DNA of 48,491 nucleotides from assembly GCA_903881425.1 (NCBI GenBank), contig CAIRTF010000117.1:1-48491 (forward strand). Direction: 5' to 3'. Source of the DNA: an uncultured Chitinophagaceae bacterium (GTDB lineage: Bacteria; Bacteroidota; Bacteroidia; Chitinophagales; Chitinophagaceae). Numbering within the stretch: the stretch's first letter is position 1; each line of letters begins with the position of its first letter. The position numbers were made by a program, and so were the translations under genes. The notes under the pieces are model-generated. The model was not told where the DNA came from, made no database searches, and worked only from the letters and a program-made list of their open reading frames with translations. Shown piece after piece: positions 3,465 to 22,694 of the stretch.

Positions 3465-6400
3465 ATGAATTTGAAACGACTGCTTGTTCTGCTAACGTTG
3501 CCGCTGATGATTTGCATGCCGGCGTTGGCACAAGACAAAATGGTTACCGGAAAGGTAACTGACTCAAAAGATGGAAGTACAATGGCAAATGTCACTGTAT
3601 CTGTAAAAGGAACTTCCATTGCCACACAAACAGCAAATGACGGAACCTTTAAAATAAAAGTTCCACCATCAGCTACAACATTAGTTATTTCTTCTGTTGG
3701 TTTTGGTTCACAGGAAGTAGCTATTGGTAGTGGTGATATACTAATAAAACTTACACAAACAAGTAATGTTTTAGGCGAAGTTGTGGTAATCGGTTATGGT
3801 ACAGTCCGCAAAAAAGATTTAACGGGTTCAGTATCAACCGTAAGCTCAAAAGATTTTCAGGGCGGTAATATTGCCACACCGGAACAATTGATATCCGGCA
3901 AAGTGGCCGGTGTATCTATTACGGCTAATGGTGGTGCTCCCGGTTCGGGAAGTGTTATCCGTATTCGTGGCGGTGCTTCATTAAATGCAAGTAATGATCC
4001 TTTGATTGTTATTGACGGGATGCCGATTGAAAATGCTGGTATTGCCGGCGTTGCTAATCCATTAAGTTTAATCAACCCAAACGATATTGAAACTTTTACT
4101 GTTTTAAAAGATGCATCTGCTTCAGCCATTTATGGTTCAAGAGCATCCAACGGTGTAATTTTAATTACTACCAAAAAAGGTAAAAGCGGTAAACCTGTAT
4201 TTAATTTCAGCACGCAGCTTTCAGCAGGTACTGTTGCAAATCAGGCAAGTATTCTTTCTCCCAATCAGGTAAGACAGATAGTTACAGCCAACGCAGGTAT
4301 AAACGGGCTTCCTAATTTAACCTCTTTACTAGGTACAGCATCTACAGATTGGCAAAGTCAGATTTATCAAACAGCGATTTCAACCGATAATAATTTAAGT
4401 GTTTCAGGATCCTTAAAGAATTTGCCTTATCGTATTTCATTAGGTTACATGAACCAGAATGGTGTGTTGAGAACTGATGGGTTGCAGCGTACAACTTTAG
4501 GACTTAATATCAGCCCTCTTTTACTTAAGGGTCATTTAAAGATTGATTTGAATTTAAAGGGTTCATATAGTACCAGCGCATTTGCCAATCAGGGCGCTAT
4601 TGGTGCAGCGGTTAGTTTTGATCCTACACAAAATGTTAGATCAGGAAGCAATCGTTTTGGAGGATATTGGGAGTGGTTAAATCCCGGCTCTATTTCAGGA
4701 CTTCAACAATTGGCACCAAAAAATCCATTGGGTTTATTAATGGAGCAATCTAATAATAGTATTGTAAAAAGAAGTGTAGGTAATGCAGTGATAGATTATA
4801 AATTCCACTTCTTACCCGATTTACATGCAGTGCTTACAGCCGGTTTTGATATATCTCAAGGAACCGGAACAAATGTAATACCTGATAGTGCCGCATCTAG
4901 TTATATGCGTAATACTGATGTAACAGGGGCTACATATGGCGGAGTTAATACTCAATATAAACAAACCAAATCCAATACTTTCTTAAACTATAGTTTAACC
5001 TATTCTAAAGAGTTGAAATCAATTAAGAGTAAGATAGAAGCTTTGGCAGGTTATGAATATCAGGATTACTTAACAACCAATTATAATTTTGCAGATTATT
5101 TTTATAATGGCAAAATGGTTGTGAATACAACACCAACATATCCTTTTAATAAACCTGAAAACAGATTGATCTCTTATCTCGGAAGGGTTATCTATACTTA
5201 CGATAATAAATATATTTTAACCGGATCAATTCGTAGAGATGGTTCTTCTAAATTCAGTCCTGCAAATCGTTGGGGTTTATTCCCATCAGGTGCATTTGCC
5301 TGGAAGATCAAGAATGAATCTTTCCTTTCTAATGTTTCAGCAATATCTGATTTAAAGATTCGTGTGGGTTATGGTGTTACCGGTCAGCAAGATGGTATTA
5401 ATGATTATGATTATCAATCATTCTATGCCTTAAGTACTTCTACTGCGCAATATCAACTCGGTAATAATTTTTATCAGATGTACAGACCGGGCGGTTATTA
5501 TCTGAACAGAAAATGGGAACAAACAGCTACTACCAATATAGCTATCGATTATGGATTTTTAAATAATCGCATTAGTGGTAGTATTGAATATTATTACAGA
5601 AATACTACAGACTTATTAAACAATATTTCACAATCAGCAGGAACCAATTTCTCCAATTACATTGTTGCAAATATTGGTAGTATGACTAACAAGGGTGTGG
5701 AATTCACAATTAATTTTCAACCCATCCGCAACAAGAATGTTACATGGGATGTAGCATTGAATGCAACTTATAACGAAAATAAAATTACCAAACTTACTAT
5801 CTCAAACGATCCTAAATACCCGGGTGTATTAACCGGAGGAATTTCCGGAGGTACGGGTAATACCATTCAAATTCAATCGGTGGGCTATGCCAAGAATTCA
5901 TTTTATACATTTAAACAAGTATATGACCCCAAGAGCGGTAAGCCAATTGATAATCTTTTTGAAGATATTAATAGAGATGGTCTTATCAATCAGAACGATT
6001 TATATCATTACAAGAGTCCGGATCCTCAGGCCTTCTTTGGATTTAGTACTAATTTAACTGTAAAGAAATGGAGCGCCGGTTTTGTTTTGCGTGCTAATGT
6101 AGGAAACTACATGTATAATAACAGGGCTTCAAGTACAGGTACATTAAGAAACATTATGAATCCTATCGGTTATATTAACAACGGGTCATCAGATGTTTTG
6201 TACACAAATTTCAGTGGTACAGGAACCAACTATTACATGTCTGATTATTATGTACAAAATGCTTCCTTCCTGAAAATGGATAACATCAATGTAGGATATA
6301 ATGTAGGCAAAGTGTTTAATAACAAAGCGACATTACGCTTAAATGCAAATGTTCAGAATGTGTTTGTGATTACAAAATACACAGGAATTGATCCGGAAAT

Positions 6401-19287: not shown

Positions 19288-19314
19288 AACCCGCTTTCAA
19301 AGCGGGTTTTTTTT
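19288..19314 (+). terminator. Intrinsic terminator after the surA-like gene
   Basis: AACCCGCTTT (19288-19297) pairs with AAAGCGGGTT (19299-19308) around a single C, and a T run follows to 19314. In practice the inner bases open to form the loop. It sits seven bases after the stop codon and before the marR promoter. Confidence 0.92.
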
Positions 19315-19327
19315 ATTGGAAAATAAA

Positions 19328-19360
19328 TTTGGAATATACATGTATATACATGTATATTTG
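19328..19360 (+). promoter_or_regulatory. Promoter of the MarR-family gene with overlapping operators
   Basis: The -33 box TTTG (19328-19331) and the -7 box TATATTTG (19353-19360) are 21 bases apart, a full consensus. Two TACATGTA palindromes at 19337-19344 and 19347-19354 fill the spacer and touch the -7 box, so a bound MarR dimer would block RNA polymerase. The predicted start falls at about 19365, the first base of the GTG start codon. Confidence 0.75.
19337..19354. promoter_or_regulatory. Paired TACATGTA operator, marR copy
   Basis: TACATGTA occurs twice with a 10-base period (19337-19344 and 19347-19354), one helical turn apart, inside ATATACATGTATAT-type palindromes. A near-identical pair precedes the pirin operon at 19839-19856. 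It is the natural candidate for the binding site of the adjacent MarR-family protein. Confidence 0.7.
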
Positions 19361-19364
19361 TCTC

Positions 19365-19823
19365 GTGAAATTAGAACAAGCCATACAAAGTGATAAATTT
19401 AAAAACAGCGTGCATAAAGCAAGTTTGAATATTTTATATACAGCATGGTGGCTGAAAACCATTACATGTAAGGAATTGAAAGAATTTGGTTTAACACATG
19501 AGCAGTTTAATGTACTGCGTATTTTACGTGGTAAATATCCCGAGCAAATGTGTGTAAAGGATATCGCTTCACGAATGATTGAAAAGAATTCAAATGTGCC
19601 AAGAATCATCGATCGATTGGAAACAAAGAAATTAGTAAAAAGAACACAAGGTGAAGCAGACGGAAGGCAAACTGTTATTAGTTTAACGCAAGCAGGAAAT
19701 GCAATTTTAGATAGTACCAATACTAAGATTAATAAATTGATGGATGAAACTATGTGTTTAAACAATCAGGAAGCAAGCACGTTAAATAATTTATTGGAAA
19801 AAGTCAGGTTAAGCGAAAAATAA
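19365..19823 (+). CDS. MarR-family transcriptional regulator
   Basis: From GTG at 19365 the protein has 152 residues and begins VKLEQAIQSDKFKNSVHKAS. The winged helix-turn-helix is seen in FGLTHEQFNVLRILRGKYPEQ, then DIASRMIEKNSNVPRIIDRL (recognition helix region), and the wing RTQGEADGRQTVISLT. An in-frame ATG at 19329 lies inside the promoter, so it cannot be the start. The start codon coincides with the predicted transcription start, implying a leaderless mRNA. It probably represses itself and the downstream pirin-YceI-reductase operon. The inducer is unknown; electrophile or quinone stress is a guess from the target genes. Confidence 0.9.
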   Translation: MKLEQAIQSDKFKNSVHKASLNILYTAWWLKTITCKELKEFGLTHEQFNVLRILRGKYPEQMCVKDIASRMIEKNSNVPRIIDRLETKKLVKRTQGEADGRQTVISLTQAGNAILDSTNTKINKLMDETMCLNNQEASTLNNLLEKVRLSEK

Positions 19824-19838
19824 ATTTTTTTAAACAAA

Positions 19839-19856
19839 TGCATGTATGTACATGTA
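19839..19856. promoter_or_regulatory. Paired operator, pirin-operon copy
   Basis: TGCATGTA (19839-19846) and TACATGTA (19849-19856) repeat the 10-base-period arrangement seen in the marR promoter, with one mismatch in eight. The site is 22 bases before the pirin ATG. No clear -7 box is visible here, so the exact promoter is uncertain. Confidence 0.65.
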
Positions 19857-19878
19857 ATAAAACAAAAGGAGAACAGTG

Positions 19879-20592
19879 ATGAAAACTGTATTACATAAAT
19901 CAAATACCAGAGGTCATGCCAATCATGGCTGGTTGAATAGTTACCACACTTTTAGTTTCGCCGGATATCACGATCCTTCAAGAATTCATTTCGGTGCATT
20001 AAGAGTATTGAATGATGATACCGTAAAAGGCGGAATGGGTTTTGGAAAACATCCACACGATAATATGGAAATAGTTTCTATTCCATTATCAGGCGATTTG
20101 CATCATAAAGATAGTACGGGAAGAGATAAGATAATTCGCGAACATGACGTACAGATCATGAATGCAGGCAGCGGCATTGCACACAGTGAAACCAATGCCA
20201 ATCATGATAAAGAAGTAAAGTTTTTACAAATATGGGTATTGCCCAAAGAAAAAAATATTGAACCGCGATATGATCAAAAATCTTTCAGTCCTGTAGATAG
20301 ATTAAATAAATTATTAACGGTTGTTGCACCCGATGATGATAATGCAGTTTGGATCAATCAGGATGCATGGTTTACGCTGGGAAATTTTTCGCAAGACTTT
20401 TTTTCAATTTATAAGCTTCATAAAAAAGAAAATGGTGTGTATGTTTTTGTGATAAAAGGAAATGTTACGGTTAATGATATTTCATTAAACGAAAGAGATG
20501 GTTTGGGTATTTGGGAAACCGATCAATTAAACATTACAGCAAACACGGCTACAGAAATTTTATTGATCGAAGTTCCAATGATTTTAAATTAA
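19879..20592 (+). CDS. Pirin family protein (YhhW-like)
   Basis: The 237-residue bicupin has the pirin metal site: H58 and H60 in GKHPHDNMEI, and H102 and E104 in GIAHSETN. It is full length with a C-terminal cupin half. Related proteins have quercetinase or redox-sensing activity with bound iron; the substrate here is unknown. The start was set at ATG 19879 because AAAGGAG lies eight bases upstream, an unusually good Shine-Dalgarno for this phylum; GTG at 19876 is less likely. It is the first gene of a four-gene operon behind a MarR-type operator. Confidence 0.9.
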   Translation: MKTVLHKSNTRGHANHGWLNSYHTFSFAGYHDPSRIHFGALRVLNDDTVKGGMGFGKHPHDNMEIVSIPLSGDLHHKDSTGRDKIIREHDVQIMNAGSGIAHSETNANHDKEVKFLQIWVLPKEKNIEPRYDQKSFSPVDRLNKLLTVVAPDDDNAVWINQDAWFTLGNFSQDFFSIYKLHKKENGVYVFVIKGNVTVNDISLNERDGLGIWETDQLNITANTATEILLIEVPMILN

Positions 20593-20597
20593 ACAAT

Positions 20598-21455
20598 ATG
20601 AAAACAGTCTATAAAATACTAAATGGTCATTCCACCAATGTAGGAAGTATAAAAGTGCAGGAGTTATTACCGGATGAACATTTTGAAAATCCATTTTTAT
20701 TATTTCATCATGGTGTTGCTGTTGCTGATAAAAATATTCCAATTCATTTGCAAGGTGTTGGTCCGCATCCGCACAGAGGTTTCAGTGCAATCAGTTTCAT
20801 TTATAAAGGTGGCGTTCATCACCGCGATAGCAGGGGAAATGATCATGTAGTATATGCAGGCGGCACACAATGGACACATGCGGGCATGGGCATTATTCAT
20901 AGTGAAAGAGTTCCGGAAGATATTTTTGAATTCGGTGGAAAGCAAGAACTGTTGCAGGTTTGGGTGAATACACCGGCTGCACATAAAATGGACCAACCAC
21001 ATTATTATCCGGCGAGTGCAGAAGAAACACCAATAGTAAAAAGTGATGACGGATTAACAACTATCCGAATTCCTGCAGGCGAATTAAATGGTGTAAAAGG
21101 GATCATTCCAACATTTACACAGATCAATACATTCATGGGTGAAATAAAGAAGGGCGGAACATTTGAATTTTCTTTTCCATCTAATCATCAAACCATTTTT
21201 TATGTGTTGGAAGGAAATGTATTGATAAATAAGGAGTCAACTGTTCAATCCAAACAAATGGCGTTGTTTAATGAAGATGGAGAAACATTTTCTATTAAAG
21301 CCGATACAGATAGTTTGTTTTATGTAGGAAGCGGGGAACCGATTAATGAGCCTGTTGCAGCACATGGTCCGTTTGTAATGAATACACAAACAGAAATTAT
21401 GCAGGCTTTCAAAGACTATCAAATGGGAAAGATGGGTGTATTGATTGAAGAATAA
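20598..21455 (+). CDS. Second pirin family protein
   Basis: The 285-residue bicupin has the metal motif H57/H59 (GPHPHRGFSAI) and H101/E103 (GIIHSERVPED), like its neighbour. The C-terminal half contains a pirin_C domain (FYVLEGNVLINKE) and a conserved PINEPVAAHGPFVMNT motif. It starts five bases after the first pirin stop; upstream in-frame ATGs would overlap that gene and are less likely. Sequence differs clearly from the first pirin, so this is an old paralogue pair rather than a fresh duplication. Confidence 0.92.
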   Translation: MKTVYKILNGHSTNVGSIKVQELLPDEHFENPFLLFHHGVAVADKNIPIHLQGVGPHPHRGFSAISFIYKGGVHHRDSRGNDHVVYAGGTQWTHAGMGIIHSERVPEDIFEFGGKQELLQVWVNTPAAHKMDQPHYYPASAEETPIVKSDDGLTTIRIPAGELNGVKGIIPTFTQINTFMGEIKKGGTFEFSFPSNHQTIFYVLEGNVLINKESTVQSKQMALFNEDGETFSIKADTDSLFYVGSGEPINEPVAAHGPFVMNTQTEIMQAFKDYQMGKMGVLIEE

Positions 21456-21495: not shown

Positions 21496-22023
21496 ATGGC
21501 AACTTACAAAATTGATGCAGCACACAGTGAAATTACTTTTAAAGTAAAACACTTAATGATTACCAATGTTACCGGTAATTTCAACAAATTCGATGCAACT
21601 ATAGAATCATCCACAGATGATTTTACTGATGCAAAAATTTCTTTTAATGCAGACGTAAACAGCATTTCTACTAATAACGAGCAAAGAGATGGTCATTTAA
21701 AAGGGGATGATTTTTTTTCTGCAGAGAAGTTCCCATCCATCAACTTCACTTCAACTGAATTTAAAAAGCTGAGTGGAAATGATTATACTTTAACAGGTAA
21801 TTTAACCATTAAAGGTGCTACTAAACCCGTTACATTAAATGTTGAATTTTTAGGAACGGCCACAGATCCATGGGGACAATCAAAAATTGGATTTGAAGCA
21901 ACAGGAAAGATCAACAGAAATGATTTTGGTTTAACATGGAATGCAAGTCTTGAAGCAGGTGGTGTTTTGGTAAGTGAAGATGTTAAACTGCAATTCAACG
22001 TTCAGTTTGTTAAACAAGCATAA
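21496..22023 (+). CDS. YceI family lipid-binding-type protein, cytoplasmic form
   Basis: The 175-residue protein begins MATYKIDAAHSEITFKVKHL and shows the YceI fold hallmarks: ISTNNEQRDGHLKGDDFFSAEKFPSI in pieces, LTIKGATKPVTLNVEF and GFEATGKINRNDFGLTWN. Family members bind isoprenoid or amphiphilic molecules in a lipocalin-like barrel. No signal peptide is present from this start; an in-frame upstream ATG overlaps the pirin gene and is unlikely. It lies 40 bases after the second pirin and probably shares the MarR-controlled transcript. Confidence 0.9.
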   Translation: MATYKIDAAHSEITFKVKHLMITNVTGNFNKFDATIESSTDDFTDAKISFNADVNSISTNNEQRDGHLKGDDFFSAEKFPSINFTSTEFKKLSGNDYTLTGNLTIKGATKPVTLNVEFLGTATDPWGQSKIGFEATGKINRNDFGLTWNASLEAGGVLVSEDVKLQFNVQFVKQA

Positions 22024-22086: not shown

Positions 22087-22650
22087 ATGAATATTGAAAT
22101 TATTTCAGGAAGCCCGAGACAAAATAGTGTGACCAACAGATTGGCATTATTCCTTAAAAAATATCTGACCGAAAAAACACAACACGAAATAGGTCTGATA
22201 GATGTACGCGAATGGAATTTGGGTTTGTTACAAAATGTTTTTGCTTCCGTAGAAAAAACACCGGATGAATTCAAGCCATTGGCAGAAAAAATATTTAATG
22301 CAGATGCGTTTATTTTGGTAACCCCGGAATACAATGGTAGTTATTCGCCTGCATTACAAAATTTGCTGGATCATTTTCCTAAACAGTCACATAAAGTTTT
22401 TGGCTTGGTAACAGCATCAGTAGGTGCTTTGGGTGGTGCAAGAAGTTCGCAGCAATTATTATTATTGGTTCCGGCATTATTCGGCATTGCCTCGCCGCAT
22501 ATGTTGATCACGCCGTTTGTTGATAAGAAATTTGATGCAGAAGGAAACTTGACTGACTCATCATTCCAAAAATCTATTGACAATTTTATTAATGAGTTTT
22601 TGTGGCTGGCAGAATCATTACATCCGGAAATAGAGACTGTGTATAATTAA
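22087..22650 (+). CDS. NADPH-dependent FMN reductase/quinone reductase-like flavoprotein
   Basis: The 187-residue protein has the flavodoxin-like start IEIISGSPRQNSVTNRLA, the phosphate-binding loop, and LVTPEYNGSYSPALQNLLDHF, the signature of the NADPH:FMN reductase/azoreductase group. A GALGGARSSQQL turn follows. Such enzymes reduce flavins, quinones or azo compounds. It ends the MarR-linked operon and is followed by a terminator nine bases after the stop codon. Confidence 0.9.
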   Translation: MNIEIISGSPRQNSVTNRLALFLKKYLTEKTQHEIGLIDVREWNLGLLQNVFASVEKTPDEFKPLAEKIFNADAFILVTPEYNGSYSPALQNLLDHFPKQSHKVFGLVTASVGALGGARSSQQLLLLVPALFGIASPHMLITPFVDKKFDAEGNLTDSSFQKSIDNFINEFLWLAESLHPEIETVYN

Positions 22651-22658
22651 TATAGAAA

Positions 22659-22694
22659 AAAGTGGCGGAGTTGTAACTTCGCCACTTTCTTTTT
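22659..22694 (+). terminator. Intrinsic terminator between the reductase and the purF-like gene
   Basis: AAAGTGGCG (22659-22667) pairs with CGCCACTTT (22680-22688), with further partial pairing inside, and CTTTTT follows. It lies only 11 bases before the ATG of the next gene, so it must end the stress operon while the next gene's promoter lies inside or upstream of it, or read-through occurs. Confidence 0.85.

Follow-up and report, generated by a model that had tools for sequence, protein, structure and literature searches.

What a second copy of a regulator's operator does behind the regulator's own gene is the question raised by a locus in the window, a 48,491-nucleotide stretch of DNA from an uncultured Chitinophagaceae bacterium. 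Two copies of a paired octamer TACATGTA lie at this locus, TACATGTATATACATGTA at 19337-19354 upstream of a MarR-family gene and TGCATGTATGTACATGTA at 19839-19856 between that gene and the first of two pirin genes. A preliminary description of the DNA had taken them for the site of a MarR autorepressor and the site of its target operon. The parts of the unit are as follows.

19288 to 19308, + strand: terminator-like hairpin of 9 pairs with a T-rich tail, 3' of a surA-like gene; upstream boundary of the unit
19328 to 19331, + strand: TTTG, putative -33 element of the marR promoter, read from the sequence; consensus TTTG / TANNTTTG (PMC6847099)
19337 to 19354, no strand: operator 1, an 18-bp palindrome of the halves TACATGTAT and ATACATGTA, identified by sequence, genome count and conservation
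19353 to 19360, + strand: putative -7 element TATATTTG, which shares bases with operator 1 at the right end of the operator
19365 to 19823, + strand: marR, 152 aa, GTG start (Pfam MarR, E 9.3e-10)
19822 to 19831, + strand: A/T tract AAATTTTTTT, which shares bases with the marR stop codon; 16 nt separate its last T from the operator 2 centre
19839 to 19856, no strand: operator 2, TGCATGTAT|GTACATGTA, centre 31 nt upstream of the pirin ATG
19879 to 20592, + strand: pirin 1, Pirin plus quercetinase-type C-terminal cupin (PF02678 E 1.2e-30, PF17954 E 1.6e-24)
20598 to 21455, + strand: pirin 2, Pirin plus Pirin_C (PF02678 E 2.2e-21, PF05726 E 2.4e-27)
21496 to 22023, + strand: YceI-like protein (PF04264 E 2.7e-53)
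22087 to 22650, + strand: NADPH-dependent FMN reductase / flavodoxin-like oxidoreductase (PF03358 E 5.3e-30)
22659 to 22688, + strand: terminator-like hairpin of 13 pairs with a T-rich tail, 5' of a purF-like gene; downstream boundary of the unit

We read the locus, with a probability of about 0.8, as a predicted autoregulated MarR-family operon (marR, pirin, pirin, yceI, FMN reductase) with two operators and a roadblock at the second. The operon and its regulon are new, and their kind is already known. In the proposed mechanism, each 18-bp palindrome TACATGTAT|ATACATGTA would be bound by one MarR dimer. The dimer on operator 1 would sit between the -33 and -7 boxes and block the marR promoter. 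Operator 2 would lie inside the transcription unit, where bound MarR would most likely stand as a roadblock in the way of RNA polymerase that has read through marR. The A/T tract, with its constant spacing of 16 nt to the operator 2 centre, would probably help. MarR would be released by an inducer, for which a quinone- or catechol-like electrophile is the most likely candidate. For the part of this reading in which MarR at operator 2 blocks read-through and holds the enzymes down more tightly than the regulator, we see even chances.

Octamers with at most one mismatch were at chance level in the window (34 found, 28.05 expected). The joint 12-bp core ATGTAYRTACAT occurred twice against 0.03 expected, and none of 100 shuffles gave two. 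Across the whole 2.75-Mb genome, the core was found just at the two marR-locus sites, and when up to three mismatches to the 18-mer pattern were allowed, every other place had three. These results confirmed the paired sites, with a core unique in the genome. Two more exact single TACATGTA octamers were seen, at 19463-19470 (inside marR) and at 6108-6115.

A search of relatives for the paired site, which the preliminary description had offered as one way to refute it, found the site conserved. We searched 195 genomes of the same family and obtained 72 orthologue loci (43-100% identical) and 18 paralogue loci (34-41%). One more orthologue, cut by a contig end (G016), was counted in the genome tally and stands outside the 72, and one paralogue (L095) has an internal stop. 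At least 11 of the 12 core letters were present upstream of marR in 68/72 orthologues and 0/18 paralogues, with 0.35% of shuffled upstream regions reaching a core score of 11 or above. Operator 1 was unclear in the four remaining orthologues (L050, L057, L064, L072). A second copy with at least 10 of 12 letters lay downstream of the marR stop codon in 52/72 orthologues, 46 of which had at least 11; among the paralogues, 1/18 reached 10. Operator 2 was absent from 20/72 orthologues and is thus not essential; 15 of these 20 loci have yceI alone 3' of marR in the fetched stretch. The genes 3' of marR were pirin and/or YceI in most loci, often plus FMN reductase and purF. A second sample comprised 51 further named loci, 39 of them non-identical to the earlier ones, and gave an upstream site of at least 11 in 27/39 and a second site of at least 10 in 22/39. 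Twelve of the 39 fell below 11 upstream; nine of these scored 9 or less, eight of them with Cys63 of the regulator retained. These eight loci (L256, L257, L264, L266, L268, L270, L273, L276) have either a diverged operator or lost autoregulation.

Operator 1 forms the middle of a longer perfect palindrome of 26 bp (19333-19358). It lies between TTTG and TATATTTG, which agree with the -33 and -7 elements of Bacteroidota promoters. Its 18 bp fall within the 16-20 bp range of MarR proteins, and binding is predicted. Bacteroidota promoter numbering puts the G of the -7 box at -5 (PMC6847099), so the predicted transcription start is 19365, the first base of the marR GTG. From the TTTG of the -7 box to the marR start codon the distance was 4 nt in 60/72 orthologue loci, which again places the start codon at +1. 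The marR mRNA is probably leaderless, with its start codon at +1. Leaderless transcripts make up 5.5% of the mRNAs examined in F. psychrophilum (PMC9723704).

The 10-base period reported for the octamers comes from the two halves of one palindrome. The preliminary description had instead placed two MarR dimers side by side on one face of the DNA, one on each TACATGTA octamer. Each first-site octamer in this genome is itself palindromic, as that model would have it. In relatives, however, the outer octamer parts vary and the joint centre is nearly invariant. TGTAnnTACA was intact in 68/68 first sites and 51/52 second sites, whereas both octamers were intact in just 7/68 first sites and 10/52 second sites. 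MarR proteins moreover use adjacent major grooves to bind a single palindrome of 16-20 bp (PMC6798810), and we consider two dimers per site very improbable. The octamer pair as two dimer sites was rejected on its conservation. The most conserved letters of the second site were the inner TGTA/TACA plus TA at each end (-9/-8, +8/+9). Because operator 1 shares its right end with the -7 box, the outer letters there are not attributable to the operator alone. This pattern fits a unit of one 18-bp (9+9) palindrome with outer TA, suited to one MarR dimer. One MhqR dimer reads a 9+9 palindrome, with a wing arginine contacting TA in a model supported by mutants (PMC12893000).

The site before the pirin gene is present as described, but a recognisable -7 box is not. 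TAnnTTTG was found 3' of the core in 0/52 loci at operator 2 versus 67/68 at operator 1, so a pirin promoter at operator 2 is not demonstrated by the sequence. An antisense promoter was rejected too, with TAnnTTTG on the reverse strand in 1/52. The operator 2 centre lay 13-31 nt upstream of the next start codon in 31/52 loci; the distances for L043 and L076, which have no start codon at the computed start, are unreliable. What accompanied operator 2 was the A/T tract, which ended exactly 16 nt before the operator centre in 48/52 loci, with variable bases in between. The same measure at operator 1 gave 16 nt in 11/68 and 15 nt in 15/68. Among 22 second sites at further loci, the spacing was 16 nt in 21 and 17 nt in one. 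A T run of at least 6 occupied the tract position in 46/52 loci with operator 2, and such a run was found behind marR in just 2/38 loci without it. The RNA of the tract is mostly U7-8; in 3/52 loci the tract is A7T3, giving just three U in RNA, a point against the proposed role of the tract.

The chief rival to the roadblock supposes a second promoter whose -7 element is unusual. Operator 2 would then lie in a separate promoter of the pirin operon, with the tract as its -33 region and a non-canonical -7 (an alternative sigma factor or a weak promoter), and MarR would repress both promoters. The tract could be a -33-like element because the TTT at operator 1 occupies almost the same position relative to the centre: its T letters span -19 to -17, and the operator 2 tract ends at -17. 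Non-main motifs account for 7% of high-confidence starts in F. psychrophilum (PMC9723704). The missing TAnnTTTG (0/52) and a drop in conservation beyond +11 speak against such a promoter, and L014 leaves little room for one, with 13 nt between the operator centre and the start codon of pirin. A paralogous MarR clade with the palindrome TTGTTGCAACAA bears on the same point, since its site 1 operator lies further from the -7 box, yet its site 2 keeps the 16-nt tract spacing. Overall, we regard a separate pirin promoter as unlikely.

In this clade, six loci (L220-L224, L229) carry TTGTTGCAACAA twice, upstream of marR and again downstream of the marR stop codon. The tract spacing was 16 nt in five of six second sites, counted at 10/12 or more, and 17 nt in the other. 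A weak 9/12 match without a tract was seen in L226, and three further loci have no second site. The tract geometry is kept though the operator changed; were the tract part of a repressor-gated elongation stop, as considered below, such a stop would amount to a module common to MarR operons of these bacteria. Two other families gave ten second sites, four at 16 nt and six at 15-20, from 12 of 42 loci picked by eye. All tract-bearing genes may share ancestry, in which case the spacing reflects conservation and not independent invention.

The operator 2 palindrome could also self-pair, and the tract is transcribed as U-rich RNA. Operator 2 might on these grounds act in RNA, with a hairpin controlling how pirin is translated or how stable its mRNA is. 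However, 15/52 sites carry A-C at -6/+6, two letters unable to pair, the mean folding z was -0.34 with 7/52 below -2, and unlinked LigB genes have this sequence upstream as well, in most cases next to a -7 box. We consider an action in RNA extremely improbable, and the hairpin at operator 2 was rejected on pairing and folding. An intrinsic terminator between marR and pirin was likewise rejected. No terminator-like site was found in the marR-pirin gap, one weak match lies inside marR (19502-19518), and the hairpin signal preceding operator 2 and its tract was small (mean z -0.33, 4/52 below -2). The distance between the centres of operators 1 and 2 was 492 to 512 in 51 loci. Helical phase is thus not fixed, which argues against DNA looping between the two sites, although looping is still conceivable.

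The proposed roadblock has precedents. C.Kpn2I blocks elongation on its own gene (PMC6237814), and CodY and CcpA are named as roadblocks (PMC10310618). All three resemble the present case in having a regulator site downstream of a promoter; here, the site differs in lying behind the regulator gene and in having a fixed-spaced A/T tract. Roadblocks downstream of promoters can add repression, and their effect may depend on the sequence in front of the block and on ribosomes that trail the polymerase (PMC4132739). Operator 2 is placed behind the marR stop codon, where ribosomes have just left. When EcoRI Gln111 is bound to DNA, polymerase halts 14 nt short of the 6-bp EcoRI site (PMC5499547); by our arithmetic this stall is about 17 nt away from the middle of the site, close to where the tract ends. 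This spacing match is suggestive only, and because MarR probably covers more DNA than EcoRI, it may be coincidence.

The fixed tract-operator spacing raises the question of whether a repressor behind its own gene brings about a hairpin-free stop, with the T tract near the stall point. The tract end would be near the stalled RNA 3' end, and bound MarR together with a weak hybrid would release the transcript without a hairpin. We put forward this repressor-gated elongation stop tentatively and think it doubtful. Related precedents are TRAP, which reportedly induces termination without the attenuator RNA, and H-NS filaments, which are reported to aid termination. By title and the start of the abstract, we found no description in the open literature of a roadblock operator behind the regulator gene combined with a fixed-spaced A/T tract, and the cited passages on roadblocks describe none either.

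Sites elsewhere were used to define the target set. The exact pattern TANRTGTAYRTACAYNTA matched in 57/73 genomes with an orthologue and 6/122 without in our own tally, many of the matches being the marR sites used to draw the pattern. The exact site was present in 38/101 genera searched, and a reversed control pattern matched in 10/195 genomes. Of the off-locus sites among the matches listed, 19 were inspected, of which 10 precede genes assigned by Pfam to LigB (5), old yellow enzyme (OYE, 2), YceI (2) and pirin (1). Nine of the 19 have no obvious related target; taken with the rate of the reversed control, this means that chance may account for about half of the sites away from the locus. 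At L138 and L144, the mechanical reading frame starts before the site, and the true start was inferred.

LigB genes gave the clearest set. Among the 30 loci listed, from matches in 110 genomes, a core of at least 11 lay upstream in 13/13 of the closest homologues (58-100% identical) and in 0/16 of those at 49-55% identity. These 16 distant homologues served as the control, with no shuffle control; L169, where no start was found, was left unscored. The 13 include the five off-locus LigB sites, one of which was the query. LigB loci with the operator are L129, L133, L135, L139, L140 and L156-L168, and the operator is mostly beside a TAnnTTTG box. A MarR orthologue was present in 11 of the 13 LigB-site genomes, with no pirin at any of their fetched marR loci. 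The window's own genome gave no LigB match at the cut-off used, and its sole two sites are those at marR, so the regulon here seems limited to this operon.

Sites before LigB, OYE, pirin and YceI genes elsewhere make the regulator-target link well supported, and strengthen the earlier assignment of an autorepressor site and a target-operon site already borne out by conservation in 68/72 and 52/72 loci. We consider the link between regulator, site and target strong, as far as sequence comparison can carry it. From the pirin with a quercetinase-type cupin, LigB, OYE and the flavin reductase, we infer that the response concerns aromatic or quinone-like electrophiles. This provides a testable operator, regulator and target set for an apparent electrophile response in Chitinophagaceae.

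The regulator has a winged-helix MarR domain (PF01047, 38.7 bits against a cut-off of 24.6). A structure model built from an alignment of 37 sequences reached a pLDDT of 92.5, and its best structural matches were the MftR-operator complex (8ylg, Z 16.9, rmsd 2.0, 146 residues) and PecS (Z 16.9). Cys63 was present in 72/72 orthologues and was the sole invariant Cys of the first sample; 15/18 paralogues have Ser there and one has Cys. In the model, Cys63 immediately precedes helix 64-70 of the winged-helix domain. The inducer might hence work by thiol chemistry on Cys63 in the DNA-binding domain and not through a ligand pocket, which would be compatible with the main explanation. Several observations run the other way. 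Cys63 aligned with no Cys in the four PDB matches shown, and MhqR senses quinones without a thiol mechanism (PMC6798810). Residue 63 was Cys in 45/51 loci of the second sample, read by position without alignment, and in L260, L269 and L271 (54-56% identical) Arg replaces it while operator 1 still scores 10-12 of 12. A Cys63 thiol switch is possible, and we lean slightly against it.

Comparison with thiol-sensing regulators of the same fold (MexR 4zzl, Z 15.3; SarZ 4gxo, Z 15.3) allows for possible thiol sensing here as well. The one-Cys group of OhrR, MgrA and SarZ has a conserved N-terminal reactive Cys. By contrast, the present regulator has no conserved Cys before residue 63, with Cys32 and Cys35 found in 6/72 and 5/72. 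MexR uses Cys30 and Cys62 (PMC11211675), and Cys63 here does not appear to be at the MexR Cys62 position.

MhqR of S. aureus and B. subtilis is similar in its MarR fold (9qdr, Z 15.5, 20% identity) and in having one 9+9 bp palindrome with outer TA and an autoregulated operon (PMC6798810, PMC12893000). Its targets include ring-cleavage dioxygenases, in B. subtilis also quinone reductases (PMC6798810, PMC12893000). Set beside that regulon, the present one has pirins, YceI and FMN reductase in its own operon, and LigB and OYE just in relatives. The MhqR operator TATCTCGAA-ATCGAAATA (PMC12893000) is, however, unrelated to TACATGTAT|ATACATGTA, and the available text of PMC6798810 mentions pirin 0 times. 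Further differences are that the dioxygenases in relatives of this locus belong to the LigB family and that a second operator lies inside the operon. Our search of the open literature found no paper combining pirin, MarR family and YceI, and none on the present regulon.

A search of the phylum aimed at other families found a match at E 1e-30 or better in 10/296 genomes, three of these 10 in the window's own family. Among 42 more distant loci, TGTAnnTACA was present before or behind marR in some and not in all. A plasmid collection gave one record, covering 19% of the query. Sediminibacterium strains carried both operators.
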